DNA of 64,000 bases from Limibacillus halophilus (GTDB taxonomy: Bacteria > Pseudomonadota > Alphaproteobacteria > Kiloniellales > CECT-8803): the NCBI RefSeq assembly GCF_014191775.1, contig NZ_JACHXA010000002.1, positions 186,001-250,000 of the forward strand, in the 5' to 3' direction. This document shows, in pieces, positions 701-22,122 of this stretch. Under the pieces are notes generated by a model that saw nothing but the letters and a program-made list of their open reading frames with translations, was not told the origin of the DNA and searched no databases. The translations under genes were made by a program, and so were the position numbers. Numbering within the stretch: the first letter of the stretch is position 1; each line of letters starts with the position of its first letter.

Positions 701-1453
701 ATGATATGGAATGCGGCTGCATATCGAGGACTTGTTCTTGCTGGTGTCGGCATCAACTTGGTGTCGCTTATTGCGTTCGTGGTTCTCACTGTGCTCCAGT
801 TCGACCAGATCCGATCCCGCCTGGAACAGGAGCGACTGGTGGTCGTTGTCGAGCGCGCTTCAGAGCCTCTGGCCTCCGCCGCCGCCATCGGGTTACGGCT
901 TTCAAGCGTCAGGGGCCTCGACGCCCTGCTCGAGCGTGCACGACAGACCGACCCGGCGATCCTGGAACTGCACCTCTTCGACGTCGAGGGGAATATCGTA
1001 GTCAGCACGCAGCCGCGCGATCCCGAATTCTCCAGGGCCGTCATCGCCCGAATCCAAAGCGCCGACGAGACCGAGGTAGCCCTCCGCGAAGGGCAAGATT
1101 TTCTTAGTGTCGTCAGGTTTTGGGATAGCAGCGGCAATGTTGCCGGGAGCCTGCTTCTGGAATATTCCGGCATCGATGCCCGCACTGCAGTGTGGGCGAT
1201 GGCAGGCCGCCTTGCGACGGCCGCCCTGTTCTTCTCCATCGTTGCCAGCGTGCTGACCGCATGGGCGATCCGGTGGGTTCTCGGCCCCGAGATTTCGATC
1301 AACAATTTATATGTCGACGCCGCCACCAAGGCCGACCAATGGCTTTGGCGAGGCCGCCCTACCATACCCGACTCAGAAGAGCCAACGCCGATCGAACATG
1401 CGATTCGCGAGGCCGACCAGCGCTATCGCGCAGTGCGGGACACCCAGACATGA
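701..1453 (+). CDS. Two-TM extracytoplasmic sensor-like membrane protein
   Basis: 250 residues. A transmembrane helix at about 11-33 is followed by about 130 extracytoplasmic residues, a second helix at about 168-190 and a short polar cytoplasmic tail. The layout is that of a PDC/Cache-type sensor, but no kinase, cyclase, GGDEF or methyl-accepting domain follows. The extracytoplasmic part resembles that of the next gene (LEQ near the start, then A.IGLRL..V.GLD spacing), so the two probably arose by duplication. The stop overlaps the next start as ATGA, implying translational coupling. The ATG at 701 is the first in-frame start and its ribosome site is weak. I do not recognise a named family; a partner of the downstream fusion is inference. 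Confidence 0.7.
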   Translation: MIWNAAAYRGLVLAGVGINLVSLIAFVVLTVLQFDQIRSRLEQERLVVVVERASEPLASAAAIGLRLSSVRGLDALLERARQTDPAILELHLFDVEGNIVVSTQPRDPEFSRAVIARIQSADETEVALREGQDFLSVVRFWDSSGNVAGSLLLEYSGIDARTAVWAMAGRLATAALFFSIVASVLTAWAIRWVLGPEISINNLYVDAATKADQWLWRGRPTIPDSEEPTPIEHAIREADQRYRAVRDTQT

Positions 1454-3345
1454 ACGGCCCGGTTCCCACCACGCATCGTAATGTGAGAATACGCCTTACA
1501 CTGGCTCTGATTGTCATTGTCACCATGACGATTGGCATGTTCTCCACCGTGACATTTCGGGCCTTCGATCAGGCCGTCGCACCAGAGTTGGAGCAACGCA
1601 TGCAGCTGCTCGGCATGCTTTTGCGCGCTGATCTTCAGCGCCCACTCGAGTTAGGCATTCCCCTGGACGCTGTCGCGGGCTTTGACGAAAGAGTTGCCGA
1701 TATCGTCAAAAAATTTCCCGAGGTCCAGAGCGTTCAAATCCTCACGCGCGACGGAACGAGCGCGCTCGACATCTCGGATGCCGCCGCGAGCGCGGCACCG
1801 TCGAACCGGCCCGGAACGGATGCCCGAACGTACCGCTTTGCGGTTCTGGTCGGTAGCGTTGTAGCCGCCGAGATTGTCCTGACCGAAAATCCCAGGTTGC
1901 TCGAGACCCAGTTACTGCATGTTCTGTTCGACATCGCCATCGTGGCGCTAGCAATCGTCGTGATCGGGGTGGAAGTCATTCTCCTCCTCGCCGCACGCAG
2001 CATTTGGCTACCGCGAGACGCGGTCGCGGCGCTTCTGGAGGAGCAGAGTCAGGGGCGCTTCGATCGTATCGTCTCAATACCGGCTGGCGGACCGCTCAGC
2101 GCGCTGGCCGCACGGTTGAACGACCGGGCACGACACCTCGCCGGCCGCGAAGTGTCGCCGCCTCATCTGGCTATACCTTCACCATTGATGGCGCGCATGC
2201 CACTGTTTCTTCTTGCGCTCGGCACCGAGACCACGGCCTCTTTCCTGCCGGTCATGGCGCGGGATCTCCATCGCTGGGATTGGCTGTCGCCGGCCGCCGC
2301 CGCCGCCGCGCCGCTTGTCGCCTACCTTCTGGCCGCGGCCACGGTTGCCCCGTTCGCAGGGCCGCTCGTTCGTCATCTCGGACCGCGCAGCGCCTTCCTC
2401 TGGTCCGTCATACCGATCGTTACCGGTCTTGCGCTCATGGCGGAGTCTTCCGGTGTCCTCGGAGCAGCAACCGGACGCATGCTTGTTGCCGTGGGATATA
2501 CGATCGCCGCCACCGCGTGTTCGCTCCATGCTCTGTGGGCGGGCGGACGCGCCGAAGCGGCACGGACCCAAGCGTCCATCAACAGCGCGCTCTACGGAGG
2601 GGTTCTGGCCGGATCGATTATCGGTGGCGTCGCCGCCTTTGAAGTCGGCTATTCCGCGGCGATCTTGCTTGGCGCGGTCGTTGTTATCATCGCAGGGAGC
2701 ACCGCGCATTGCGCATTGTCCGGGTCGGGCACCACACCGTCCACACCCAGAAAATCCAGCACCCCGCAGGTTCACGAAGGCCGCACCTTCGCAGCGATCG
2801 CATTCGGGCTGGCTGTCCCATTGAGCATCACCACGGCGATGGTGATCTGGTACCTCGTTCCACTTCTGCTGTCGTCAGCGGGTTTTGACGCGGCGATGAC
2901 CGCCCGGGTCGTGATGCTTTACTATCTCTGCGCGGTCTTCGTTGCACCGTTGGTCGGCCATTTCCTGGGGACGACCGGTTCCGGAATGGCCGCAAGCGCC
3001 GGGGCGCTGATCTCGGGCTTAGCCCTGCTGATCGCCGGGGCATTGGATGGCTCGACGAGTCTCATTGTCGCGGTAGCGGTAATCGGGGTAGGCCACGCCA
3101 TGCTCCGCGCACCAATCTTCGCGCTTGTCAACGAAGTCGCGGAGAGTCACCCCGAGCGAATTGACCACCTCCGGGTGATTGAGCGAGGGGGTGCGGTTGT
3201 CGCCTTTCTCGTGGCCAGCGTTACCGCCTCTCCCGATCACCCTGCGGTCGTGTTCACCACGCTTGGCGCGCTGACATTGTCAGGGCTAGCGGTTTTTGCG
3301 ATCATTTCTCGTGCCGGGGTCAGCAAGGAGGCGGCGGGGAAATGA
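1450..3345 (+). CDS. Sensor-HAMP-like-MFS transporter fusion protein
   Basis: 631 residues. A first TM helix spans about 15-35, an extracytoplasmic sensor-like segment about 36-155, and a second helix about 157-185. A HAMP-like linker follows at about 187-230 (LLEEQSQGRFD..., then LAARLNDRARHLAGRE). A full-length MFS-type hydrophobic region of about ten to twelve helices runs from 248 to 625, with PLVRHLGPRSAF between helices as in MFS loop 2-3. The start at 1450 overlaps the upstream stop (ATGA) and the stop overlaps the downstream start (ATGA). A sensor module joined through a HAMP-like linker to a permease is unusual; HAMP domains normally feed kinases or chemoreceptors. The exported or imported substrate is unknown. 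The domain boundaries are by-eye. Confidence 0.75.
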   Translation: MNGPVPTTHRNVRIRLTLALIVIVTMTIGMFSTVTFRAFDQAVAPELEQRMQLLGMLLRADLQRPLELGIPLDAVAGFDERVADIVKKFPEVQSVQILTRDGTSALDISDAAASAAPSNRPGTDARTYRFAVLVGSVVAAEIVLTENPRLLETQLLHVLFDIAIVALAIVVIGVEVILLLAARSIWLPRDAVAALLEEQSQGRFDRIVSIPAGGPLSALAARLNDRARHLAGREVSPPHLAIPSPLMARMPLFLLALGTETTASFLPVMARDLHRWDWLSPAAAAAAPLVAYLLAAATVAPFAGPLVRHLGPRSAFLWSVIPIVTGLALMAESSGVLGAATGRMLVAVGYTIAATACSLHALWAGGRAEAARTQASINSALYGGVLAGSIIGGVAAFEVGYSAAILLGAVVVIIAGSTAHCALSGSGTTPSTPRKSSTPQVHEGRTFAAIAFGLAVPLSITTAMVIWYLVPLLLSSAGFDAAMTARVVMLYYLCAVFVAPLVGHFLGTTGSGMAASAGALISGLALLIAGALDGSTSLIVAVAVIGVGHAMLRAPIFALVNEVAESHPERIDHLRVIERGGAVVAFLVASVTASPDHPAVVFTTLGALTLSGLAVFAIISRAGVSKEAAGK

Positions 3346-4384: not shown

Positions 4385-4959
4385 GTCAGAAGAACTTGGG
4401 TTGAGAGGACTTGTGCCGTTCCCTACCTGCGCACATGACAAAACGCAGCCCATTCCGATACTTCGAGATGAGCCCAGAGATCATCCGCCTAGCGGTCATG
4501 ATGTATATTCGGTTTCCTCTCTCACTTCAGAATGTAGAGGATCTCCTTCACGAACGCGGGATTGATTTCAGCCACGAGAAGGTGCGTTTCTGGTGGGACC
4601 GTTTTGGACCGATGTTCGCCTCTGAGATCTGTAAGCGACGGATCCAAAGCATGCGGTTAAACCTCTGGCGATGGCAACTGGACGAGGTGTTCGTTAAGAT
4701 CGACGGCGAAACGCACTACCTGTGGCGCGCCGTCGATCACGAAGGCGAGGTCCTGGATTCCTTCGTGACGAAGAGGCGCGATAAGAAAGCTGCGTTGAAA
4801 TTCCTAAGGAAAGCACTGCGCAAGCACGGTCGGCCCGAGGTTATCGTGACCGATCAACTTCGATCATATGGGGCTGCACTTGCAGAATGGCGAAGCCTCA
4901 TCACTGCCTGACGCTCGACTCGGCTGGAGTATACTGAACCGAGTTCGAATTCGTCTGAC
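4385..4959 (+). mobile_element. Internally deleted IS6-family element
   Basis: The left end starts GTCAGAAGAACTT at 4385 and the right end reads GAATTCGTCTGAC to 4959; the two form an imperfect inverted repeat. At about 575 bp it is shorter than a complete IS6-type element because the transposase gene has lost its middle. The 10-mer GTCAGAAGAA also occurs at 4367-4376, so the left terminus is present twice in tandem. It is in the same direction as the element at the window start. Confidence 0.7.
4435..4911 (+). pseudogene. IS6-family transposase with in-frame internal deletion
   Basis: 158 codons that keep the N-terminal helix-turn-helix region and the catalytic core up to VTDQLRSYGAAL, then jump directly to AEWRSLITA at the C-terminus. 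Compared with the copy at 2-424, about 65 codons are missing, including the NNRAENSH segment with the third catalytic acidic residue. The break sits between two similar GC-GC-ACT/GCCGCTCTC stretches, consistent with slippage or recombination between short repeats. The reading frame is preserved, but the product cannot have a complete DDE triad. The preserved DNA-binding part could still bind the IS ends. Confidence 0.8.
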
Positions 4960-8606: not shown

Positions 8607-8645
8607 TTGACAGTCTTCATATATTTCAATATTTCATGATATATG
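8607..8645 (+). promoter_or_regulatory. Putative arsR promoter and operator
   Basis: A -35 element TTGACA at 8607-8612 is followed after 17 bases by a -10-like TATTTC at 8630-8635. An imperfect dyad, CATATAT (8618-8624) and ATATATG (8639-8645), overlaps the -10 and the start codon and is a candidate ArsR operator. The start codon at 8643 lies only seven bases after the -10, so the transcript would be leaderless or nearly so. Confidence 0.55.
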
Positions 8646-8975
8646 GAAGATACACGAGCACTCGCGGCCTTTGCCGCTCTTAGCCAAGCTACACGTCTTG
8701 AGGTATTCCGCCTGTTGATCCGGGTCGGCCCGACCGGCATGGCGGCGGGTGAGATCGGGGAGTCCCTTGGCGTGCGGCAGAACACGCTTTCGGCCAATCT
8801 TTCGGTACTGCTGAATGCCGGGCTGGTGCGCAACGAACGGCAAGGACGCTCCATCCGCTATTACGCCGATATGGATGGATTACGAGGCCTGCTTGGATTC
8901 CTGCTGAGCGATTGCTGCGGCGGCCGCGCGGAGATGTGCCAGCCGCTGATCGATGAAATTGCCTGCGCCTGCTGA
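8643..8975 (+). CDS. arsR: ArsR-family arsenic-responsive repressor
   Basis: 110 residues of the ArsR/SmtB winged-helix family (ALSQATRLEVFRLL, then AAGEIGESLGVRQNTLSANLSVL as the recognition region). Cysteines are clustered near the C-terminus (DCCGGRAEMC, then ACAC), as in proteobacterial ArsR proteins with C-terminal As(III) sites. It heads the arsC-acr3 genes, 14 bp before arsC, and so should repress this operon until arsenite binds. No Shine-Dalgarno sequence precedes ATG 8643 and the promoter suggests a leaderless message. Confidence 0.9.
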   Translation: MEDTRALAAFAALSQATRLEVFRLLIRVGPTGMAAGEIGESLGVRQNTLSANLSVLLNAGLVRNERQGRSIRYYADMDGLRGLLGFLLSDCCGGRAEMCQPLIDEIACAC

Positions 8976-8989
8976 GGGAACCGCCGACC

Positions 8990-9511
8990 ATGTCCGACAG
9001 GGTTTACAACGTACTCTTTCTCTGCACCGGGAATTCAGCCCGTTCCCTGATCGCAGAAGCAATCATGAACGCCGAAGGCAAGGGCCATTTTCGTGCTTTT
9101 TCCGCAGGCTCAAACCCCAAGAGCGAGCCCCATCCCTACACGATCGACCTTCTCAAAAGTCTCGGCCATGACACGGCGCGACTGCGCTCGAAGAACTGGA
9201 ACGAGTTCGCCCTACCCGATACGCCGCAGATGGACTTCGTGTTCACGGTTTGCGATCAAGCCGCCGCCGAGACCTGTCCGGTCTGGCCAGGCCAGCCGAT
9301 GACCGCCCATTGGGACATACCGGACCCGGCCGCTGTGACCGGCAGTGAAGCGGAACGGCGCCTTGCCTTTTCAATGGCCTACAAAATGCTTTCAACCCGG
9401 ATATCCTTGTTTCTGAGCTTGCCTTTCGCTTCTTTGGACAGGCTTTCGCTTAAGCAGAAGCTCCAGGATATTGACCTTGCCGAAACAGCAAGTAGCGCCC
9501 CCACTTCCTGA
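8990..9511 (+). CDS. arsC: Arsenate reductase, low-molecular-weight phosphatase type
   Basis: 173 residues of the thioredoxin-coupled ArsC family. The CX5R loop reads FLCTGNSARS near residues 11-20, and later Cys residues lie in FTVCDQAAAETC, followed by a W-D-IPDPA segment carrying the general acid region. It reduces arsenate to arsenite for export by the downstream Acr3. It is 14 bp after arsR and 27 bp before acr3, in one operon. Confidence 0.92.
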   Translation: MSDRVYNVLFLCTGNSARSLIAEAIMNAEGKGHFRAFSAGSNPKSEPHPYTIDLLKSLGHDTARLRSKNWNEFALPDTPQMDFVFTVCDQAAAETCPVWPGQPMTAHWDIPDPAAVTGSEAERRLAFSMAYKMLSTRISLFLSLPFASLDRLSLKQKLQDIDLAETASSAPTS

Positions 9512-9538
9512 ACCAACAGCAACTGCGGAATACTTTTC

Positions 9539-10585
9539 ATGACAGACACGACCGCGCCCGCGACGCCGGCCATGAGTATCTTCGAACGTTGGCTAACCCT
9601 CTGGGTGGGTCTGGCAATATTGGGCGGATTACTGCTTGGCAGCATCGCGCCCGGGCTGGTCGAGGCCATCGCGGCGGCGGAATTCGCGTCGATCAATCTC
9701 GTGATGGCTGTCCTGATATGGGCAATGGTCTACCCGATGATGGTTGGCGTGGACTTCGCGGCAGCTGCCGGGGTTGCCCGGCAACCGAAGGGACTGCTCA
9801 TCACGCTGACGGTGAACTGGCTGGTCAAACCCTTCACTTTGGCGTTGTTGGCGGTCTTGTTCTTCGACCATATTTTCGCGCCCTTGATCGAGCCTGCGGA
9901 TGCCGCGCAGTACACAGCGGGCCTGATTCTGCTAGGAGCGGCCCCCTGCACGGCCATGGTCTTTGTCTGGTCCCAGCTCACGCGCGGTGATGAAACCTAT
10001 ACGCTGGTGCAGGTTTCGGTGAACGATCTGATCATGATCGTCGCCTTCGCGCCCATCGTCGCTTTCCTGCTTGGCGTTACGGAAATTTCAGTCCCCTGGG
10101 AGACACTGGTCTTGGCGACGCTGCTCTACGTGGTTATGCCATTGCTCGCCGGGTTGCTCACCCGTAGAAGGCTCCGTACGCCCGAACGTATCGCCGGCTT
10201 TACCGCCCGCATTAAACCCTGGTCCATGGTCGGGTTGATCACGACTGTGGTGATCCTGTTTGGGCTGCAGGGCAATGTCATTCTGGACAGGCCGCTGGTC
10301 ATCGGTTTGATCGCCGTGCCGATCGTGATCCAGAGCTATGGCATTTTCGCGCTCGCTTACGGCGCCGCCTACGCCCTCAAGGTGCCCCACCGCATCGCCG
10401 CCCCTTGTGCGATGATCGGTACGTCCAACTTCTTCGAACTGGCGGTTGCTGTTGCAATCAGCCTGTTCGGGCTTAACTCGGGCGCGGCCCTCGCCACCGT
10501 CGTCGGCGTCCTTGTCGAGGTGCCGGTCATGCTGTCATTGGTGAGTTTCGCCAACCGCACCCGCAACAAATTCCCCGGGGCTTGA
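9539..10585 (+). CDS. acr3: Arsenite efflux permease Acr3
   Basis: 348 residues with about ten TM helices, of the bile acid/arsenite/riboflavin transporter superfamily. The Acr3 hallmark [19 protein letters not shown], with its essential Cys, is at about residues 137-156, and the [13 protein letters not shown] segment near the C-terminus is also typical. It exports As(III) across the inner membrane. It is the third gene of arsR-arsC-acr3. An internal ATG at codon 12 is a possible alternative start. Confidence 0.93.
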
Positions 10586-10712
10586 TTGCCGGAAACACCG
10601 CTCACGCGCGCTCCGGCATCTGCGTGTCGCCGGGAATTATAGGTCGGAACAAATTAAGCCACCGATTGAGATTGGATCGAACAGTGCCGGGAGCCGATAA
10701 CCGCACTTGAAG

Positions 10713-11300
10713 CTATGTCTCGATGCCGCGGCCAACAACCAACGCCTCCCGAAGCGTCGGGTCCAAGTCGTTGTAGGCCTTGTCCGGCAAGGTCCCCAAC
10801 GCATCCAGGGTTTTGCTGAAAAAACATCTGACGGCAGCTGCCGATGCGATGTCGAAAATTTCCGGGTCCGAGAGCCCATGCTTGCGCAATCCTGCGACAT
10901 CCTCCTCCGTGATCGCTGACGCATCACGCACAACGGCGCGCGCAAACTCCATTATCGCTTCGTCCGCAGCACTCAGGACGGAAGCATCGGGCGTTTCCAG
11001 AATCTCTTGAAGCTGCGGCGTATCGTAATAGCGTTCGGCAAGCACGGATCCATGTACCAGCATACAGTAGGAGCTTCGAAGCTCTAGAGCGGCTGCAACG
11101 GTGACCAGTTCATAGCGCCGTTCATCCATGTTGCGCTTGATACTGTTAAGCAATTCGTTCCAGCCGGCCATCACCTCCGGTCGATGTGAAAAGGCTTTAA
11201 CCATGTTTGGCAGGTAGCCGAAGCTGTCTCGCACTCTGTTATACATCTGGGATGTGGCCGCGGTTGCTTGCTCTTCTGGAATTACGCTTATGAAAGACAT
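10713..11300 (-). CDS. Peroxidase-related (carboxymuconolactone decarboxylase/AhpD-like) protein
   Basis: 195 residues of the uncharacterised peroxidase-related branch of the AhpD/CMD family. The CxxxH redox motif reads YCMLVH at about residues 80-85, preceded by the helix containing ERRYELVTVAAALEL. The start at 11300 is supported by a GGAGG site (11306-11310); an upstream extension lacks this. It is a predicted alkylhydroperoxidase-like reductase with unknown substrate. It converges on acr3 but is transcribed apart from it. No signal peptide is seen. Confidence 0.8.
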   Translation of the reverse strand: MSFISVIPEEQATAATSQMYNRVRDSFGYLPNMVKAFSHRPEVMAGWNELLNSIKRNMDERRYELVTVAAALELRSSYCMLVHGSVLAERYYDTPQLQEILETPDASVLSAADEAIMEFARAVVRDASAITEEDVAGLRKHGLSDPEIFDIASAAAVRCFFSKTLDALGTLPDKAYNDLDPTLREALVVGRGIET

Positions 11301-11672
11301 TACCCCTCCTAAGGATAGGTCGCCTCGCGTGGCCAACATCGCTGTGCCGGGGATTTCGGTCCGTTACGGTTCACGCGAGAAGCCCTGAACGACCAGCCTG
11401 CAAGAACGCCTCGGTCCTATCAAGTCCAAGTTCCAAGGTAACAGCGGCATTTAAGCGACCTACCTTCACTCCCTGAGGATCGCGGGAAAGCCTTGGAAAA
11501 TGTGCAATTTGGCACCAGAAAGAAGACCAATCCAATATCTGAATTTCAGGCCTTGATCGTCGCCGATGTCCTGGTGGCAGACTCCGCTCCTCATCACCAC
11601 CTACAAATTCTATGATTAGCAGGACTTAGCGCGGTTCACACACTATGCTTCATCGACGAGGAGGACCAAAAG
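11301..11672 (+). other. Intergenic region of about 370 bp
   Basis: No intact gene is seen. It holds the 5' flank of the minus-strand AhpD-like gene, a probable decayed peroxiredoxin fragment (11392-11520) and the 5' flank of the VOC gene, whose GAGGAGGA ribosome site is at about 11658-11665. Confidence 0.6.
11392..11520 (+). pseudogene. Possible decayed AhpC/TSA peroxiredoxin N-terminus
   Basis: One frame reads TSLQERLGPIKSKFQ, then a stop, then SLRIAGKPWKMCNLAPE. Both pieces resemble the N-terminus of redoxin-family proteins (SLQ..LD..K..F, later G.AL..GD.APEF). The stop codon and the loss of the rest make it a fossil. The evidence is only by-eye similarity. Confidence 0.3.
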
Positions 11673-12143
11673 GTGACTGAGACCAAAGATCGCAAGGCCA
11701 AAGCCGTAGGCATCAACCATGTTGCCCTTGAAGTCGGCGACATTGATCAGGCGCTCGCGTTCTATGGTGCCTTTCTCGACTTCGAAATCGAAAGCAAGAG
11801 CGAGAAAGCGGCTTTCATCTATTTCGGCGATCAGTTTATCAATTTTGCGTTGGGCCGAACCCAAGGACCTGACGCGAACCGGCATTTCGGGATCGCCGTG
11901 GATGACAAGGATCAGGTGCGACGGACTCTCGAAAAGATGGGCGTTGAACTGCTGGGCGGGCGCTTTCTCGATTTTCTCGACCCCTGGGGCAACCGGGTGG
12001 AAATCACCACCTACGCCAACATCCAGTTCTCCAAGGCCGACCACGTCCTCCGGGGCATGGGTCTGGGCCACCTCCAAAAAACCGACAACGCGATTGCCGA
12101 GCTTCGGCAGAAGAAGATGGCCCCACCCGACAGGGGTCAGTAA
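11673..12143 (+). CDS. VOC-superfamily (glyoxalase/dioxygenase-like) protein
   Basis: 156 residues with the beta-alpha-beta-beta-beta fold signature of the vicinal oxygen chelate superfamily. The start is INHVALEVGDIDQALAFYGA (metal-ligand His near residue 15), HFGIAVDD comes in the second half, and FLDPWGNRVEITTY carries the final Glu ligand. The start is GTG at 11673 after a strong GAGGAGGA site. The substrate is not predictable. It overlaps the convergent GNAT gene by seven bases. Confidence 0.85.
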   Translation: MTETKDRKAKAVGINHVALEVGDIDQALAFYGAFLDFEIESKSEKAAFIYFGDQFINFALGRTQGPDANRHFGIAVDDKDQVRRTLEKMGVELLGGRFLDFLDPWGNRVEITTYANIQFSKADHVLRGMGLGHLQKTDNAIAELRQKKMAPPDRGQ

Positions 12144-13051
12144 AGAATCGAAGGCATGAAGGCCCCTGATGGCTCATTGTAAAAGCCCTGGCTCATCAGG
12201 GTCATAGGCTGAACGATTTTCAAGCCCTGCTCCAGACACCATAGAAGAAGCGCCGTGTTCCGCGTTGGCAGCAAAAAGCCCGGCCCCGCAAACTCGGGCG
12301 CAGCGCAGATCAAGGCTTTAATATCCTCATTGCTCTCGCCAACCGCATGGCCAAAAAAAGCAATCTGGGTGGTATACCCCGAGATACGGCCATCGTGCTC
12401 GACCACCATAGCGGTGCCTTGAGCGATGGCATTACGCAGATCGCCTTCACGGCTGTAGCCGTTTAGGCTCTGATGGAGCCTCGTGCAGGCCGCAACATCG
12501 GCTTCTGACGCGGCGCGTGCCTTGTAACCTGGAATCGCCACTCTTGGCACGGACCCCTGCATCGTCGAGAGCGGTTCGCGCGCGACGAAGCCCATCTTCG
12601 TATAAAGCGCTAGCGAGCGATTGTGGTAGGCTGCCTGGACAAGACGAACGCTGTTGACGCCGGCGTCGCGGGCCGTGTCCAGCGCCCAGTCCATTAACTG
12701 CCTGCCAACCGTTACGTTCTGGCAAGCCGGATCGATCGTGATCGGTCCCACGCCGGCAACCGTCTCGCTTATCCAAAGGAAATTGCTGCCGACAACCTCG
12801 CCCGCCATTTCAGCGACGACCGAACGGATCGCCGGATTGCTTAACGTGTAGTCGAGAAGTCCCTGCGCAACATCTATTGAAGGGAAATCAGGCGGAAAAT
12901 CGTGGCGTTCCGAGATTGCCTTGAATGCGTGATAGCAGATCTTCCCGCAGGCCGCCGCGTCATTTGGTTGGCCGGGCCTCAAGGTAAACTGATAACCAGG
13001 TTGTTGATCGATGTGAAAGTTTGAACCTACGTCCATGTAACCCGCGCGCAA
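12137..13051 (-). CDS. Tandem GNAT-family N-acetyltransferase
   Basis: About 304 residues. The first GNAT domain is clear at about 20-165: VAEMAGEVVGSNFL, then GVGPITIDPACQNVTVGRQLM as the acetyl-CoA loop and NRSLALYTKMGFV. A second, degenerate GNAT-like half follows (SGYTTQIAFFGHAVGES, then PTRNTALLLWCLEQGL). The start is a choice: TTG 13051 sits eight bases after a GGAGGGAGG run, whereas ATG 13036 has no ribosome site at the right distance and ATG 13120 is further up. The acceptor substrate is unknown. Confidence 0.75.
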   Translation of the reverse strand: MRAGYMDVGSNFHIDQQPGYQFTLRPGQPNDAAACGKICYHAFKAISERHDFPPDFPSIDVAQGLLDYTLSNPAIRSVVAEMAGEVVGSNFLWISETVAGVGPITIDPACQNVTVGRQLMDWALDTARDAGVNSVRLVQAAYHNRSLALYTKMGFVAREPLSTMQGSVPRVAIPGYKARAASEADVAACTRLHQSLNGYSREGDLRNAIAQGTAMVVEHDGRISGYTTQIAFFGHAVGESNEDIKALICAAPEFAGPGFLLPTRNTALLLWCLEQGLKIVQPMTLMSQGFYNEPSGAFMPSILY

Positions 13052-13287
13052 TGAACGCGCCTCCCTCCAATTGATAACGAAAGTGGGGGGATTATTGGTG
13101 CAACAGTTAGCAATTCGCATTCAGGAAATTTGCGATATCAGATCAGAAAAATGCATAAGCGCCCATGGAGTCCCATCAACTGGGCAGCAGACACTGCAAG
13201 CGTCGCCGATTGCGCCTACGCGGCAAAACCTATTCAAGGAGGAAAAGATTAATATATAACATTAATATTTTGAGGTAATTATTTGTT

Positions 13288-14358
13288 TTACCAATGCTTT
13301 CTGTCAGATTCATGAACACGGATTTCGTCACTCCCCAAGAGGCGATAGAGACGCTTCTTACCAAACCCGCGCAACTCTCGTTCACCTATCTCCTCGAAGA
13401 TGAAACCATCGGTCAACTTCTGCCGCATTTCCTCAGCGAGAATGATCTCCATACTGTCGGCCTGTGTTTCCAACCGCGCAGCCAAATTTATTCCCGGGCC
13501 AAAAACATCATAGACGTACTTCTGGATGCCGACGATCGACCCAATTACCGGGCCGCTATTGATCCCGATACGGCAAGCCCACTTTTGGCTGTGGGTTTCG
13601 TTGCGGCGACGCAGGAAATGGACGATGCGCAAAGCGACACCGGCAATATTGTTTGCATGGTCGGGCGTCGCTTCGGGTATCCCCGAGACCGCTATATAAG
13701 CGTCCCCTATCGTTTTCAGGCGCTCGCATCCGAACTGCTCGACGATGCGATCAAAGGCCGTGAAGATATCATTCAATTCGGAAATTAAAGCTGGCGGGTC
13801 TTCCGTAATGGCCATTTCCGTGAAGCCTACGAAGTCCAGCATCAACAACGAGCAATCCTCGAAGCGCTGCGGTGTGGTCACACCGAACTGACGCCATTCT
13901 TCGTAAACCGTCTTCGGCATAATGTTGAGCAGCACCTTCTCGACCCGCTCCTTCTCCTTGCGCAAGTCGCGGTTCTGCTTCTCAATCATCGAGGAGTAGG
14001 ACTGGATCATGTATTCCAGCTCGCGAATTTTAGTGATGTTCTGACATTCCAACATCAAGACCGATAGGGAGTCGGTCTCGCGCAGCGTTATCTCGACGGC
14101 CAATGATATCTTTCGAGTTCCGCGCTGGACCTCACTTGCAAAGGTGAACGCCCGGCCCGCCTCCAACCGCTTTTCCATTTTCTCGCGATCTAGCTGCGGA
14201 AAGAAACCTTCCAGCGTTCGTGCGCCGCCAGTCTGCTCGGAAAACCAGTGATCCATACGATCATTGAGGAAGACTAAATCAAGGCTTTTGCGGTCAAAGA
14301 CGGCAAGGCCAACCCCCACGGACTGCAGCAGCAACTTGTTAAAACGATCCAAGTCCAT
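13288..14358 (-). CDS. PAS-coiled-coil class III adenylate cyclase
   Basis: 356 residues. A PAS-like domain spans about 8-120 (GVGLAVFDRKSLDLVFLNDRM), a coiled coil about 120-150 (KQNRDLRKEKERVEKVL), and a class III cyclase domain about 155-330. Metal-binding Asp residues lie in LMLDFVGFT and IGDAYIAV. The purine-selecting residues look adenylate-like (Lys in RLKTIGD, Asp in YDVFG), and the transition-state Asn/Arg are in INLAARLE. It lies 19 bp after a truncated haemoglobin gene on the same strand, which suggests a haem-based input supplied in trans. No TM helix is seen, so it is probably cytosolic. Confidence 0.9.
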   Translation of the reverse strand: MDLDRFNKLLLQSVGVGLAVFDRKSLDLVFLNDRMDHWFSEQTGGARTLEGFFPQLDREKMEKRLEAGRAFTFASEVQRGTRKISLAVEITLRETDSLSVLMLECQNITKIRELEYMIQSYSSMIEKQNRDLRKEKERVEKVLLNIMPKTVYEEWRQFGVTTPQRFEDCSLLMLDFVGFTEMAITEDPPALISELNDIFTAFDRIVEQFGCERLKTIGDAYIAVSGIPEATPDHANNIAGVALRIVHFLRRRNETHSQKWACRIGINSGPVIGSIVGIQKYVYDVFGPGINLAARLETQADSMEIILAEEMRQKLTDGFIFEEIGERELRGFGKKRLYRLLGSDEIRVHESDRKHW

Positions 14359-14377
14359 GACGCCGCACCGCTCCTCG

Positions 14378-14737
14378 TCAGTTGGTCACAATCACGTGCC
14401 GGCGTTTCTTGATTTCATGAATCACGTTGTGGACATCGGCCGGATCGAACTCGAAATCCTCCAAAGTCTCCTCAAGGATTGCGGCCATCTCGTCGAAAGC
14501 CTCGTCACTGATTGACAGGTTGAGATGCACACGCCTCAAGACTTCATCCGTGTAGGAGGCCGGACCGCCCATCAGCGAAGCAATGAACTTGGTCTGATGA
14601 TCGATCAAGACCTTCATGTCTGAACTAGCAAAATAGGGGGCCAGAATCTCTGAATCCCCGACCCGATCGTAGAAATCCAGAACGACCTTGCTAACAAAGC
14701 CGAAGCCGCCGTATCTGTCAAAAACGGTAGCTGCCAT
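14378..14737 (-). CDS. Group I truncated haemoglobin
   Basis: 119 residues of the trHbI family: VFDRYGGFGFVSKVV at the start, DFYDRVGDSEILAPYF for the B/C region with the B10 Tyr, IDHQTKFIASLMGGP for the E region, and LRRVHLNLSIS with the proximal F8 His. The ATG at 14737 follows a GGGAGG site. The gene is the first of a two-gene unit with an adenylate cyclase, 19 bp upstream of it. An O2/NO/redox input to the cyclase is inference from the gene pairing. Confidence 0.85.
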   Translation of the reverse strand: MAATVFDRYGGFGFVSKVVLDFYDRVGDSEILAPYFASSDMKVLIDHQTKFIASLMGGPASYTDEVLRRVHLNLSISDEAFDEMAAILEETLEDFEFDPADVHNVIHEIKKRRHVIVTN

Positions 14738-14946
14738 CCCGGCCTCCCTCAGGCTAAGGATACTCCCCAAGCCCCAAGAATAAGCCATTCACCCACTCGA
14801 ATGTAACTATTGTCTTTGAGTTGGCACTTTTGCAGATGCTCGGTATCGGGAAGGATTAGCGACCAAACTTTAATTCAGAAAGCGAGCGGCAGGCTGGCAA
14901 CCACCGCTCGCATTCCTGGAATGTTTGTAGCCGTTTGGTTGACTGA

Positions 14947-15336
14947 CTACTTCGAGCTCCGCATGGAATCGATACTCCATGCGCCACCGCCAGCGGCCGC
15001 GATGTAGAGGAACGTGAAGCTGTAAAGCGCCGCTAGCTCACCACCGTTGAGAAGCGGGTAAAAGCCCTGCGGCGCATGAGCATAAAAGTACGCGACAGCC
15101 ATAAGGCCGGACAGAACGAAAGCCACCGGCCGGGTGAACAGACCAACGACCAACAGAGCGCCGCCAATCAGTTCGAACAGACCCGCTGCGCCGCCCATAG
15201 ACGCCATAGGCACATCGTTCATAGGGCTCACAGGGATGCTCAGATACTTTGTCGTGCCGTGCTGCAAGAACAAAAGCCCGGACATAATGCGCAGAACGCT
15301 GAGGAGCTGCGATGAGTACGAGGATAGAAAGTTCAC
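14947..15336 (-). CDS. DoxX-family membrane protein
   Basis: 129 residues, four TM helices, with the DoxX marks LRIMSGLLFLQHGTTK at the start and GLFELIGGALLVVGLFTRPVAF in the middle. GTG 15336 is preferred over an upstream ATG because GGAGG lies eight bases before it (15345-15349) and the length fits the family. DoxX relatives act in oxidative or thiosulfate-linked redox membrane complexes, but the function here is unknown. It lies about 180 bp downstream of the copper ATPase gene on the same strand. Confidence 0.85.
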   Translation of the reverse strand: MNFLSSYSSQLLSVLRIMSGLLFLQHGTTKYLSIPVSPMNDVPMASMGGAAGLFELIGGALLVVGLFTRPVAFVLSGLMAVAYFYAHAPQGFYPLLNGGELAALYSFTFLYIAAAGGGAWSIDSMRSSK

Positions 15337-15520
15337 GTTTATAGCCTCCGACAAGACATCGTAAAGGCAACTCATGCCCGTTACGATAGGTCCAAGACAA
15401 AAGCCGCAGCGAATAATGCGTTGCGGCCATGCCCCGCAGCGAGTGCTGCGACAAAAATTCACGGTAATTTGCTTCTCAGAGCCTTGTCAACGAAAGGCGG
15501 TGTGCGGACGCCCTGCCCTG

Positions 15521-17899
15521 TTACAACTTAACCCCCCGCAAGCGAAGTGCATTGCCCACGACTGAAACCGACGAGAAGCTCATGGCGGCGGCGGCGAACA
15601 TCGGCGATATCAACAGCCCCAGGAAGGGATAGAGAATCCCTGCGGCAATCGGTACGCCCGCAGCGTTGTAGATAAAGGCAAAGAAGAGGTTCTGCTTGAT
15701 ATTGCGCATCGTCGCCAAGGCCAGACGCCGGGCTCTGACGATGCCGTTCAGGTCGCCTTTGACCAGTGTGAAGCCAGCGCTTTCGATGGCCACATCGGCC
15801 CCCGTGCCCATGGCGATTCCAACGTCGGCCTGGGCCAAAGCCGGCGCATCGTTGACGCCGTCGCCCGCCATGGCGACCTTGTGCCCCTGGGCCTGGAGTT
15901 CCTTGACGATGCGCGCCTTATCCTCTGGCATGACGTCGGCCCGAATATCGTCGATTCCAAGCCTGGCGGCGACGGCACGCGCCGTGCGCTCGTTATCACC
16001 GGTAGCCATAACGATCCGCAATCCCTCCGCGTGAAGCGCCTTCAGGGCCTCCGGCGTGGTCTCCTTGACCGGGTCAGCAACCGACACAAGCCCTGCGATG
16101 ACATTATCGATGATAACGAACATGACGGTCTCGCCTTCATCGCGCCGGGCGTTGGCCGCATTTGCAAACGGTGCGCTGTCCAATCCCATTTCGGCGACAA
16201 GCTTCGCATTGCCAAGCGCAACAGCCTTGCCGTCGACAACGCCGCGAACGCCTTTGCCGACCACAGCTTGGAAGTCCTCTGCCTTGGCAAGCGACAATCC
16301 GCGTTCCTCGGCACCAGCAACAATGCTCTCGGCCAGCGGATGTTCGGATCCACGCTCCAAGCTCGCTGCGATACGGAGAACTTCGCCTTCCTCAAACCCT
16401 GCCTCCGGCACCACTGCCGTCAGCATGGGCTTGCCGCGCGTCAGCGTACCGGTCTTATCGACGATCAGGATATCGACCTTTGCGAATCGCTCCAACGCCT
16501 CGGCATTCTTAATCAATACGCCGACCTGAGCACCACGCCCAGTGGCCGTCATGATCGACATCGGCGTCGCAAGTCCCAGGGCGCATGGGCAGGCGATGAT
16601 CAGCACCGCGATTGCTGAGACCAAGGCATAAGCAAAGGCTGGTGAAGGGCCCCAAACCGCCCAAGCGACGAACGCAATGGCAGCAACGGCGACCACCGCC
16701 GGAACGAAGTAACCAGCAACGGAATCCGCTAGCTTCTGAATGGGCGCCCGGCTTCTCTGGGCCTCTGCGACCATATTAACAATTTGGCTTAATACAGTAT
16801 CGGAACCAACTCTTTTTGCTTCAATAATAAAGCTCCCAGTTCCATTAACTGTGGCACCGGTTACGAGATCCCCTTCCGCCTTTTCGACGGGCAAGGGTTC
16901 ACCGGATATCATCGACTCATCGATGGAAGAGTGCCCCTCAATAACGACACCATCGACTGGCACCTTGTCACCCGGACGAACGCGCAGCCGATCACCAACC
17001 TTGACCTCTTCGAGCGGCACCTCCTCTTCACGGCCGTCCTCCCGGATGATGCGCGCGGTCTTGGCGGCCAGATCCAGTAAGGCCCGAATGGCCGTGCCGG
17101 TTCGTTCGCGCGCGCCCAGTTCCAGCAACTGCCCTAACAGGACAAGCACGACGATAACCGCGCCGGCCTCGAAGTAGACCCCGACGTTTCCATGGGCGTC
17201 CTGAAAGCCAGCCGGAAAGATTCCCGGTGCCAACACCGCCACGATACTGAAGCCATAAGCGGCGGCCACGCCCATCCCGATAAGCGTGAACATGTTGAGA
17301 TTACGGCTAATGAGGGATTTGACGGCCCGCACGAAGAATGGCCATCCAGACCAGAGCACCACCGGTGTGGCCAGCACGAGTTCCACCCACAGAGCCGGGC
17401 GTTCGCCGAGCATGTCTCGTAGGAACCCCAGTCCGAGCATCGGACCCATGGTCAGCAAAAGGATCGGCAGCGTCAGAACCGCGCCGACAATGAAGCGCCG
17501 CTTGAAGTCGACCAACTCCGGATTGGGACCCTCCTCGCCGGTGGGAATACCCATAGGTTCAAGCGCCATGCCACAGATCGGGCAATCTCCCGGCTTATCC
17601 TGAACGATCTCCGGGTGCATCGGGCAGGTAAATTGCGTGCCCTTAGGGGCCTCTGCCGCGGCCTTTTTATGAGCACCCGAAAGGAAGTGCTCTGGATCAG
17701 CCGAGAACTTGTCATGGCAACGCTGCGAGCAGAAATGATAGTCCTGCGCTTCATGGGTAAAGCTCGGTTTGCCCTTTCCCAATGCAACTTTCATACCGCA
17801 GACGGGATCGATAACGCTTGGCGCCTCACCCTCGGTTTTGCTGTGACAGCAGTCGCCCTGATGGGTGTGATGGGCGTGGTGTTGGTTGTGCTCTTGCAT
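15521..17899 (-). CDS. copA: Copper-translocating P1B-type ATPase (CopA-like)
   Basis: 792 residues. The N-terminus is His-rich (HHAHHTHQ), followed by a YHS domain ([18 protein letters not shown], about 32-75) and a heavy-metal-binding domain (CPMHPEI, CPICGM, about 92-117). Eight TM helices, the CPC metal site ([13 protein letters not shown]) and the phosphorylation motif DKTGT come next. The ATP-binding SEHPLAES, the hinge GDGVNDAP, and [10 protein letters not shown] with [16 protein letters not shown] in the last helices indicate Cu(I) export. No classic HMA ferredoxin-like domain is present. A CueR-type promoter lies upstream at 17968-17998, but cueR is not in the window. Confidence 0.93.
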
Positions 17900-20358: not shown

Positions 20359-22122
20359 TCAAGATAAGGAATCTGGTAAACCCGCCCGTCGCAACCCTTC
20401 CACGAAACGCTCGATATCAGCGGGAATCTTGCTAGGCACCATCGCGGCATCAGCGGTCGTATGAGTGGGTTCGAGGGTGCGATAATCCTCAACCGCTTGT
20501 CGTGCTTCCTCCATGCGATCCTGCCAAGCCAGTGCCGAAGCCAACTGCCGGCGAAAGGTTGGGTTTCGAGGTGCTAGCCGAATTGCTTGCCTGGCGGTAC
20601 TCGCTGCTTCCCCGTGACGCTCAAGGCTCATGTAGGCCCAAAAAAGTCCCATAAGCCAGAATACCACCATCCCGTCGCGGGGACTGAGGCGGATAGCCTG
20701 GGAAATAGAATCAATTCCCTTCTCGGCCTCTCCAAGCAGGGCAAGCGCCGCCCCTCTGATCCCAATTGCCGAGGCAAAGTTGGGGCTCAAGTCTATGGCC
20801 CGCTCGACCGGCGGCAACACCTCGTCCCATTGGTGCGTCACCACATTTGACCAGGATAGGATTGTCAGCGCCCAGGGATCCGTATCATCGATAGCAACGG
20901 CATCTTTGGCTGTCGATGCCATAGCCTGCAACGATGTCGCGGGATCATCGCTCCAGCGGTAATAGGATTCGAGAAAATGGACGAGAGCTAGATCGCTCAT
21001 GCCAAACTCGCCACTTGGAACAAGGGATATCGCCCGCTCAAACAACAATCGCGCCTCGTTAGCATCTCGACGCCCCAGTTTCCAGAGGTGCGCACGCCCG
21101 CGCATCACGCATTCCCAGGCATCAAGCTGGGAGGCGTCCTTGCGCTTGGCTTGCTGTGCTTCGACCAAAAGGAACTCCGGCGCAATCGCGCCGACGATAG
21201 ATGCCGTCACCTCGTCTTGCACATCGAAGATATCGGCAAGCATCCGGTCGAATCGCTCGGCCCAGACATGATTACCCGTCGTCGCGTCGATAAGCTGGGC
21301 GGTGATCCGGAGACGTTCACCCGCCTTGCGGACGCTACCCTCCAGCAGATATTTGACGCCAAGCTCGGCGGATACCTGCTTCACGTCCATCGAGCGACCC
21401 TTGTAGGTAAAGCTGGAATTGCGCGCGATGACAAAGAACCAAGGCATCCGCGATAGGGCCGTGATGATATCTTCCGTCATGCCATCGGCAAAAAACTCCT
21501 GCTCTGGGTCGCCGGACATATTGTCGAAAGGCAAGACGGCTATCGAAGGTTTATCTGGCCGCTTTGCGAGCCCAGCCGATAGGGGAAGCGCAGCTGCAAT
21601 CGAAGCTGCATCGGGAAGCCACCGCCAAACCCGGATAGGCCGGTCAATATTCTTCAGTGCCTGTTCACCACCGTCCTCAAAGCCAAAGGGCAGTTGACGA
21701 TGGACCTGCTCGTAAACCGCGCCTGAAATACAAACGCCACCGGGATTGGAGAGCGTTTCGAGGCGTGCGGCGATGTTCACGCCGTCGCCATAGATATCGG
21801 ACCCTTCCAGGATGATATCCCCCAGGTTAACGCCAATACGCAGGCGAATCTGCCGTTCATCCGGCTGCGATTGCTCCTGGGTTGTAAGAGTCTGCTGGAT
21901 TTCGATCGCGCAGGTAACCGCATCAACAACGCTGCCAAACTCGACCAGCAATCCATCGCCCATCAACTTGACGACCCGCCCGTGATGTTGATCGATTTTT
22001 GGCTGCACGACTGTCTTGCGTACCTGCTTGAGACGCGCAAGCGTCCCGGTTTCGTCCAGGCCCATCAGGCGCGAAAATCCCACCACATCACCAGCAAAGA
22101 TGGCTGCAAGCCGACGCCCCAT
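20359..22122 (-). CDS. Class III adenylate cyclase with TolB-like and TPR domains
   Basis: 587 residues. The cyclase domain spans about 5-175: metal Asp in FAGDVVGFSRLMG, KLMGDGLLVEF with an adenylate-type Lys, and DIYGDGVNIAARLE. A linker and a TolB-N-like domain follow at about 205-320 (SIAVLPFDNMSGDPEQEFFADGM, LLEGSVRKAG), and then TPR-like helices to the end. This layout is common in soluble rhizobial-type adenylate cyclases. ATG 22122 is supported by GGAGGAG just upstream. The physiological signal is unknown. Confidence 0.88.
   Translation of the reverse strand: MGRRLAAIFAGDVVGFSRLMGLDETGTLARLKQVRKTVVQPKIDQHHGRVVKLMGDGLLVEFGSVVDAVTCAIEIQQTLTTQEQSQPDERQIRLRIGVNLGDIILEGSDIYGDGVNIAARLETLSNPGGVCISGAVYEQVHRQLPFGFEDGGEQALKNIDRPIRVWRWLPDAASIAAALPLSAGLAKRPDKPSIAVLPFDNMSGDPEQEFFADGMTEDIITALSRMPWFFVIARNSSFTYKGRSMDVKQVSAELGVKYLLEGSVRKAGERLRITAQLIDATTGNHVWAERFDRMLADIFDVQDEVTASIVGAIAPEFLLVEAQQAKRKDASQLDAWECVMRGRAHLWKLGRRDANEARLLFERAISLVPSGEFGMSDLALVHFLESYYRWSDDPATSLQAMASTAKDAVAIDDTDPWALTILSWSNVVTHQWDEVLPPVERAIDLSPNFASAIGIRGAALALLGEAEKGIDSISQAIRLSPRDGMVVFWLMGLFWAYMSLERHGEAASTARQAIRLAPRNPTFRRQLASALAWQDRMEEARQAVEDYRTLEPTHTTADAAMVPSKIPADIERFVEGLRRAGLPDSLS

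Follow-up and report, generated by a model that had tools for sequence, protein, structure and literature searches.

A group I truncated haemoglobin kept beside a dedicated class III nucleotide cyclase: a proposed split haem-sensor cyclase in Limibacillus halophilus and its relatives

Can a truncated haemoglobin and a nucleotide cyclase, encoded side by side as separate genes, form a two-part enzyme that links O2 or NO to cAMP? The question is raised by a gene pair of Limibacillus halophilus, located in a 64,000-nucleotide stretch of DNA (positions 186,001 to 250,000 of contig NZ_JACHXA010000002.1), the whole of which is referred to here as the window. The following features of the pair could be distinguished:

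14378-14737, minus strand: 119-aa truncated haemoglobin of group I, proposed as the haem-sensing subunit (Bac_globin, 61.9 bits)
14359-14377: spacer of 19 bp between the globin and cyclase genes
13288-14358, minus strand: 356-aa nucleotide cyclase of class III, by prediction an adenylate cyclase (Guanylate_cyc, 146.4 bits)
14035-14358, minus strand: N-terminal PAS-like part of the cyclase, residues 1-108 (secondary structure of the AlphaFold2 model; alignment with soluble guanylate cyclase from residue 5)
13921-14034, minus strand: long signalling helix of the cyclase, residues 109-146 (one predicted helix; weak HNOBA match at residues 100-152)
13327-13872, minus strand: catalytic domain of the cyclase, about residues 163-344 (Pfam match 163-340; VIA Z up to 25.1 against class III cyclase domains)

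The preliminary description of the window had reported separate, adjacent globin and cyclase genes 19 bp apart, and this is borne out, with both frames intact on the minus strand and the globin upstream of the cyclase. Most relatives start the globin at the corresponding Met, so that a longer in-frame start at 14788 is less likely. Purine-rich stretches precede the starts of both genes (by eye), and a promoter and terminator scan of positions 12100-15600 gave counts no higher than shuffled sequence. The genome contains a single Bac_globin match, that of the window, and a profile search of the genome matched neither a myoglobin-type globin family nor H-NOX (HNOB). It holds eleven domains of the class III cyclase type and five that bind cNMP; apart from the pair, the window itself has two of the former, at 21652-22101 (minus strand) and 25747-26259 (plus strand), as converted from genome coordinates. 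A DoxX protein (14947-15462, upstream of the globin) and a heavy-metal P-ATPase are encoded 5' of the pair on the same strand, and an acetyltransferase, also on the minus strand, beyond it. Genes of arsenic type are found near the pair at 8643-12143, with Pfam matches to the LMW phosphatase, SBF-type transporter and glyoxalase families, together with an ArsR-like frame (by eye). The window begins with two similar frames, about 4 kb from each other, that look transposase-like (5-424 and 4411-4911, by eye).

The globin belongs to the truncated family over its whole domain, matching Bac_globin (cut-off 21) at profile positions 1-119 of 121; among chains of known structure, single-sequence comparison places it closest to GlbN/HbN. 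The AlphaFold2 model of the globin (pLDDT 86.8) has Mycobacterium tuberculosis HbN as its best PDB match, with 1s56_A the best Foldseek match (TM 0.86 by query length), giving a 2/2 fold close to TrHbN. The topological positions follow from an ungapped offset of 10 to HbN. On this numbering Y23 (B10), F36 (CD1), H47 (E10), Q48 (E11) and H71 (F8) are invariant in the 18/18 rows of the globin alignment, as are the Gly-Gly motifs G10-G11 and G57-G58. Haem would be bound through His71, and the Tyr B10 and Gln E11 pocket is as in HbN. The distal His E10 had been overlooked in the preliminary description. It occurs in 18/18 alignment rows gathered by similarity alone, against 0/38 of the lower-scoring truncated haemoglobins aligned, among which Lys stands at E10 in 31/38. 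The larger count of 98/98 for His E10 is partly circular, as the search that yielded loci L032-L111 demanded that histidine. His E10 is not exclusive to cyclase-paired globins, since a second globin copy in genome G094, which lacks a cyclase, also carries it. The E10 residue is described as a possible iron ligand, with release of the distal His of cyanobacterial GlbN coupled to a conformational change (PMC11904497), and His or Lys at E10 is likewise described (PMC4720485).

The cyclase retains the residues expected of an active class III enzyme. Among its homologues, a set of 91 that includes some near-identical rows, D175 (91/91), D219 (91/91), N291 (87/91) and R295 (89/91) are conserved, and the two metal-binding Asp as well as the transition-state Asn and Arg are all present in the window cyclase. 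At the purine-contacting positions it has K215 (Lys in 75/91 homologues, Arg in 16/91) and D284 (91/91). The catalytic and purine-contacting roles of these six residues are those given in the class III literature. A purine pair of adenylate type, Lys plus Asp, is suggested on the basis of the sequence, in agreement with the adenylate-type residues that had been proposed for this protein. Conservation extends to the helix region, where M117 (90/91), S120 (90/91), Y121 (91/91) and E126 (91/91) are nearly or wholly invariant.

Its designation as a PAS cyclase fares less evenly. The AlphaFold2 model, built from 15 sequences (mean pLDDT 80.5; pTM 0.53), shows a PAS-type order of strands and helices over residues 1-108, followed by a helix (109-146) and then the catalytic domain. 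The designation follows from this predicted fold; a Pfam search of the window cyclase returned no PAS model. Weak HNOBA matches occur at the linker, all below the cut-off of 23.4 (16.8 bits; 19.4 bits with the N-terminal part alone; 22.2 bits in the fused homologue L073 described below). Ranked by E-value, the Foldseek matches of the model are headed by human soluble guanylate cyclase (8hbf_A; E 7e-21). VIA places model residues 5-343 on 8hbe_A residues 276-660 (308 residues; rmsd 9.4) with a Z of 23.0, which is carried mostly by the catalytic domain, alone reaching 25, while the arrangement of the domains differs. The 8hbe_A segment presumably runs from behind the H-NOX domain to the end of the catalytic domain. 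Within the helix and catalytic region the structural alignment rows cover cyclase residues 111-347. The weak HNOBA matches point the same way as these alignments, towards a predicted architecture like that of soluble guanylate cyclase without its H-NOX domain, a likeness that had also been missed in the preliminary description.

Whether the two genes belong together was assessed by the conservation of the pair in relatives, which had been set beforehand as the result on which the proposal could fail. In a sample of 385 Alphaproteobacteria genomes, 66 contain a globin match at E ≤ 0.001. Scores of at least 62 bits are reached at 20 places, all of which were examined, and the remaining matches stay at or below 50 bits. 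A cyclase homologue lies directly 3' on the same strand in 17/20 of the best places. The three exceptions are L014, where the globin is followed by an oxygenase-like frame (by eye), L018, and the second globin copy in G094 (34 % identical), which has a hydrolase-like frame next to it (by eye); none has a cyclase. In L018 a 146-aa frame (1040-1480, minus strand) with a very weak PAS match (E 0.08) overlaps the globin by 4 bp; this may be a pair whose output domain was lost or never present. The cyclase of G094 is identical to that of Desertibaculum subflavum (Sneathiellaceae). Among the lower-scoring globins of the class sample, the cyclase was found near the globin in 0/11 loci fetched, with flanks of at most 1.5 kb.

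The association is also close from the cyclase side. A reverse search with the cyclase profile, scoring at most five candidates per genome, recovered 17/385 genomes at E ≤ 1e-60 (all at least 468 bits), exactly the 17 genomes with the pair. With the N-terminal 160 cyclase residues as query the same 17 genomes were recovered at 143.8 bits or above, and the one other match at E ≤ 1e-6 is a 957-aa frame of 35.6 bits. The picture is the same in 398 genomes sampled across the phylum, some of them shared with the class sample, with a cyclase beside 3/3 globins above 160 bits and beside 0/27 of the lower-scoring globins (at most 85 bits) in the loci fetched. The cyclase profile scores 561, 525 and 509 bits in these three genomes and at most 222 bits in every other match, and for the five best of the other matches the 2.3-3.9 kb of sequence fetched contains no such globin. 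On contigs of named genomes 268 relatives were confirmed, and in 78 of the best 80 the cyclase is directly 3' on the same strand; the contigs of the remaining two (L087 and L088) end 26 and 66 bases past the globin. In the samples searched the linkage is thus near-obligate whichever gene is taken as the starting point, with the pair conserved for 17/20 class globins, 17/17 cyclase genomes and 78/80 named relatives. Given so faithful a linkage, it is probably through the haemoglobin that the enzyme senses gas or redox state.

The spacing of the two genes ranges from an overlap of 23 bp to a gap of 86 bp (median 7; 95 pairs from both sets, with some genomes counted twice and the fusion excluded). 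The cyclase frame is interrupted in four loci of three genomes (L006/L057, L020 and L048), by either sequencing error or decay. Two archaeal plasmid globins of about 40 % identity are without a cyclase, and a Halorussus plasmid has two DoxX genes next after its distant group I globin (L177:3986-5803). In family f189, of another class of the same phylum, many genomes have two tandem group I globins (L149-L175); these belong to a different branch, and this cyclase is absent from the loci fetched. A search of viral contigs returned no relative. Pairwise globin and cyclase distances are correlated (r 0.787; 0/2000 permutations as high), which shows joint inheritance and not contact, as shared inheritance alone would suffice.

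Isolates with the pair include Roseibium aggregatum, Stappia and Marinobacterium species and Novosphingobium pentaromativorans. The pair on plasmid pLA3 of N. pentaromativorans US6-1 is annotated as two separate proteins (WP_007014575.1 and WP_007014576.1) encoded 4 bp apart, and the cyclase is 43 % identical to that of the window over residues 1-342. An ATP-binding protein and a response regulator directly follow the cyclase of this pair (L176:7413-9996), and arsB, an arsenate reductase, ArsI/CadI and an ArsR-family regulator are annotated nearby (L176:119-2512). A PAS histidine kinase and a response regulator also occur near the pair in some other loci, for example L101:569-3522. Labels outside the Pseudomonadota, namely Chloroflexi, Actinomycetota, Gemmatimonadota, Nitrospinae and Polyangiaceae, are all those of metagenome bins. 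The cyclase labelled Polyangiaceae falls among the Kiloniellaceae in the tree, and contamination of the bin is therefore likely, at least for this label.

In one homologue the two proteins are encoded as one. On a 6-kb contig from a Nitrospinae metagenome bin (L073, 4535-5863) a single frame of 442 codons includes the globin (4-105) and the cyclase domain (259-438), with the PAS-like part and the helix between them. The globin lacks about its last 20 residues, and since the frame comes from a single metagenomic contig an assembly error is possible. If it is real, the fusion has the globin in the position that is held by the H-NOX domain in soluble guanylate cyclase. The near-obligate linkage and the single-frame fusion together support a two-protein haem-sensor cyclase.

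The pair is probably best read as a split haem-sensor cyclase, in which the globin is the sensory subunit that switches cAMP synthesis by the PAS-helix-cyclase protein. The haem of the globin would be held by the proximal His71 (F8) and, in the unliganded state, probably also by the distal His47 (E10). Binding of O2, NO or CO, or a redox change of the iron, would displace His47 and alter the shape of the globin, which may dock on the PAS-like and helix part of the cyclase dimer. The change would then travel along the long helix to the catalytic domains and alter the rate of cAMP synthesis, so that the globin would play the role that the H-NOX domain has in soluble guanylate cyclase. In that enzyme the H-NOX and PAS domains are reported to rotate, with the result that the coiled coils become straight and the catalytic domains shift (PMC6839917). 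The gene pair, its near-obligate association, the intact catalytic residues, the architecture resembling soluble guanylate cyclase and the one fusion are features of the sequences or of structure prediction; haem binding, physical contact, the ligand, the direction of regulation, the cAMP product and coordination by His47 are what we infer for such a split cyclase. The proposal that a two-protein enzyme links O2 or NO to cAMP through a group I truncated haemoglobin is thus strengthened in its genetic part, by the linkage and the fusion, while the interaction, the ligand and cAMP retain the standing of predictions. The five cNMP-binding domains and the absence of H-NOX and myoglobin-type globin matches in the genome were counted in favour of the split-sensor reading. 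Counted against it were a covariation analysis that gave no sign of contact (below), the possible assembly error in L073, the globins without cyclase (3/20 in the class sample and the two archaeal ones) and the His E10 of one of these, the interrupted cyclases, Arg at the position of K215 in 16/91 homologues, and a Tyr B10/Gln E11 pocket that would equally suit an O2-binding NO dioxygenase.

This pocket, similar to that of HbN, also favours another explanation, in which the globin is an NO dioxygenase, peroxidase or redox protein that removes or produces a small molecule sensed by the PAS-like part of the cyclase, without the two proteins touching. The PAS-like part could bind a ligand of its own, and no covariation signal between the proteins survives the controls. 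The covariation set comprised 86 non-redundant globin-cyclase pairs (effective number 65), and 35 of the top 60 inter-protein residue pairs fell in the PAS-like part before correction. A docking focus on this part was rejected, as an inter-protein correction left 30 such pairs, whereas 30 row shuffles gave 36 ± 4, and covariation yielded no docking face for the globin on the cyclase. The single covarying pairs E30 of the globin with T81 of the cyclase, and A33 with N107, are suggestive only, and in sister-pair contrasts two of the eleven residue pairs checked lie in the top 1 % of all pairs. An enzyme acting merely as a neighbour is nevertheless unlikely, considering that in the class sample this cyclase always accompanies the globin and the globin almost always the cyclase, that the two proteins occur as a single frame in L073, and that the predicted architecture matches an enzyme with a haem domain beside its PAS domain and helix.

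It is less likely still, and quite improbable, that the genes are co-transcribed for the sake of co-regulation only, with the cyclase under another input and the globin a housekeeping protein. The compact spacing, with its overlaps and short gaps, fits an operon whatever its function, and some pairs have genes for a histidine kinase and a response regulator in their vicinity. However, the tested neighbours vary where the pair is constant. Among 53 loci with at least 6 kb on either side, the pair is present in 53/53, while the next commonest of the eight proteins tested, which were picked from the window and from frequent neighbour clusters, are the PAS histidine kinase (15/53) and the response regulator (11/53). 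In the 250 bp upstream of 99 globins of the clade, with some genomes counted twice, the best matches to FNR- and CRP-like sites are distributed no better than for 821 control genes, and the fusion L073 likewise argues against this explanation. Chance neighbourhood, or hitch-hiking in a recently spread island, recalls the metal-related genes that flank the window pair on both sides and the ars genes near the Novosphingobium plasmid pair, but can be given hardly any credence, being contradicted by the class, reverse, named-relative (78 of the best 80 loci) and neighbour counts, with the linkage spanning strongly diverged cyclases and the DoxX, P-ATPase, acetyltransferase and AhpD-like proteins that flank the pair in the window found in 0/53 loci.

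The split haem-sensor cyclase, as proposed, has elements in common with several known systems. Soluble guanylate cyclase (H-NOX-PAS-coiled coil-cyclase) shows the same order of PAS-like part, helix and class III cyclase that is predicted here, alignable over residues 5-343, and has a haem protein as its input, as is presumed for the pair. It differs in that the window cyclase and the L. halophilus genome are without H-NOX, the haem protein being a separate truncated globin, and in the adenylate-type K215 and D284, where GTP-specific enzymes have Glu and Cys. Soluble guanylate cyclase is a heterodimer, which the present cyclase is not known to be. Globin-coupled sensors carry 3/3 sensor globins, and the window globin is of the 2/2 truncated type. 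In globin-coupled diguanylate cyclases and HemAC-Lm, a globin likewise serves as gas sensor for a nucleotide cyclase (PMC5549716, PMC12755159). Those sensors are single chains, whereas the globin and cyclase of the window are encoded by two genes and are fused only in L073. The separate partners of bacterial H-NOX proteins are kinases or c-di-GMP enzymes, in contrast to the class III cyclase found here, and the haem fold is a different one. The principle of a small haem sensor that acts via a separate signalling partner is shared with them (PMC10746521, PMC8738867). The hexacoordinate TrHbN-1 proteins, including cyanobacterial GlbN and Chlamydomonas THB1, are group I globins in which a residue that may bind the iron occupies E10 (His in GlbN, Lys in THB1), and its release is coupled to a conformational change (PMC11904497), whereas the coordination of the window globin is predicted only.

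Globin-coupled cyclases, H-NOX partner systems and soluble guanylate cyclase are thus already known, while a truncated haemoglobin with a dedicated class III cyclase appears new within the literature searched. No such pair was described in the titles, abstract openings and best-ranked matches of a literature search, nor in the portions consulted of PMC1592074, PMC4319818, PMC4648194, PMC4720485, PMC11904497 and PMC12755159. The word cyclase is absent from the main text on TrHbN-1 globins (PMC11904497), as it is from the main text, supplement aside, of a study of rhizobial globin gene contexts, which reports truncated globins with variable flanks in the part consulted (PMC4648194).

What truncated haemoglobins do physiologically is described as largely unsettled (PMC4304232), and a branch that is kept almost exclusively with one cyclase offers a concrete, testable signalling function. 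The wider proposition, that a widespread group I branch is the dedicated sensory subunit of a cAMP cyclase resembling soluble guanylate cyclase, with the globin replacing H-NOX and ligand exchange at the distal His as the switch, has about an even chance of being correct. If true, it would represent a second route to a haem-gated PAS-helix-cyclase and would define a signalling role for truncated haemoglobins. Bacteria would then also offer a soluble counterpart of soluble guanylate cyclase in two parts, which could be assembled and taken apart in vitro and may show how a haem protein drives a PAS-helix-cyclase.
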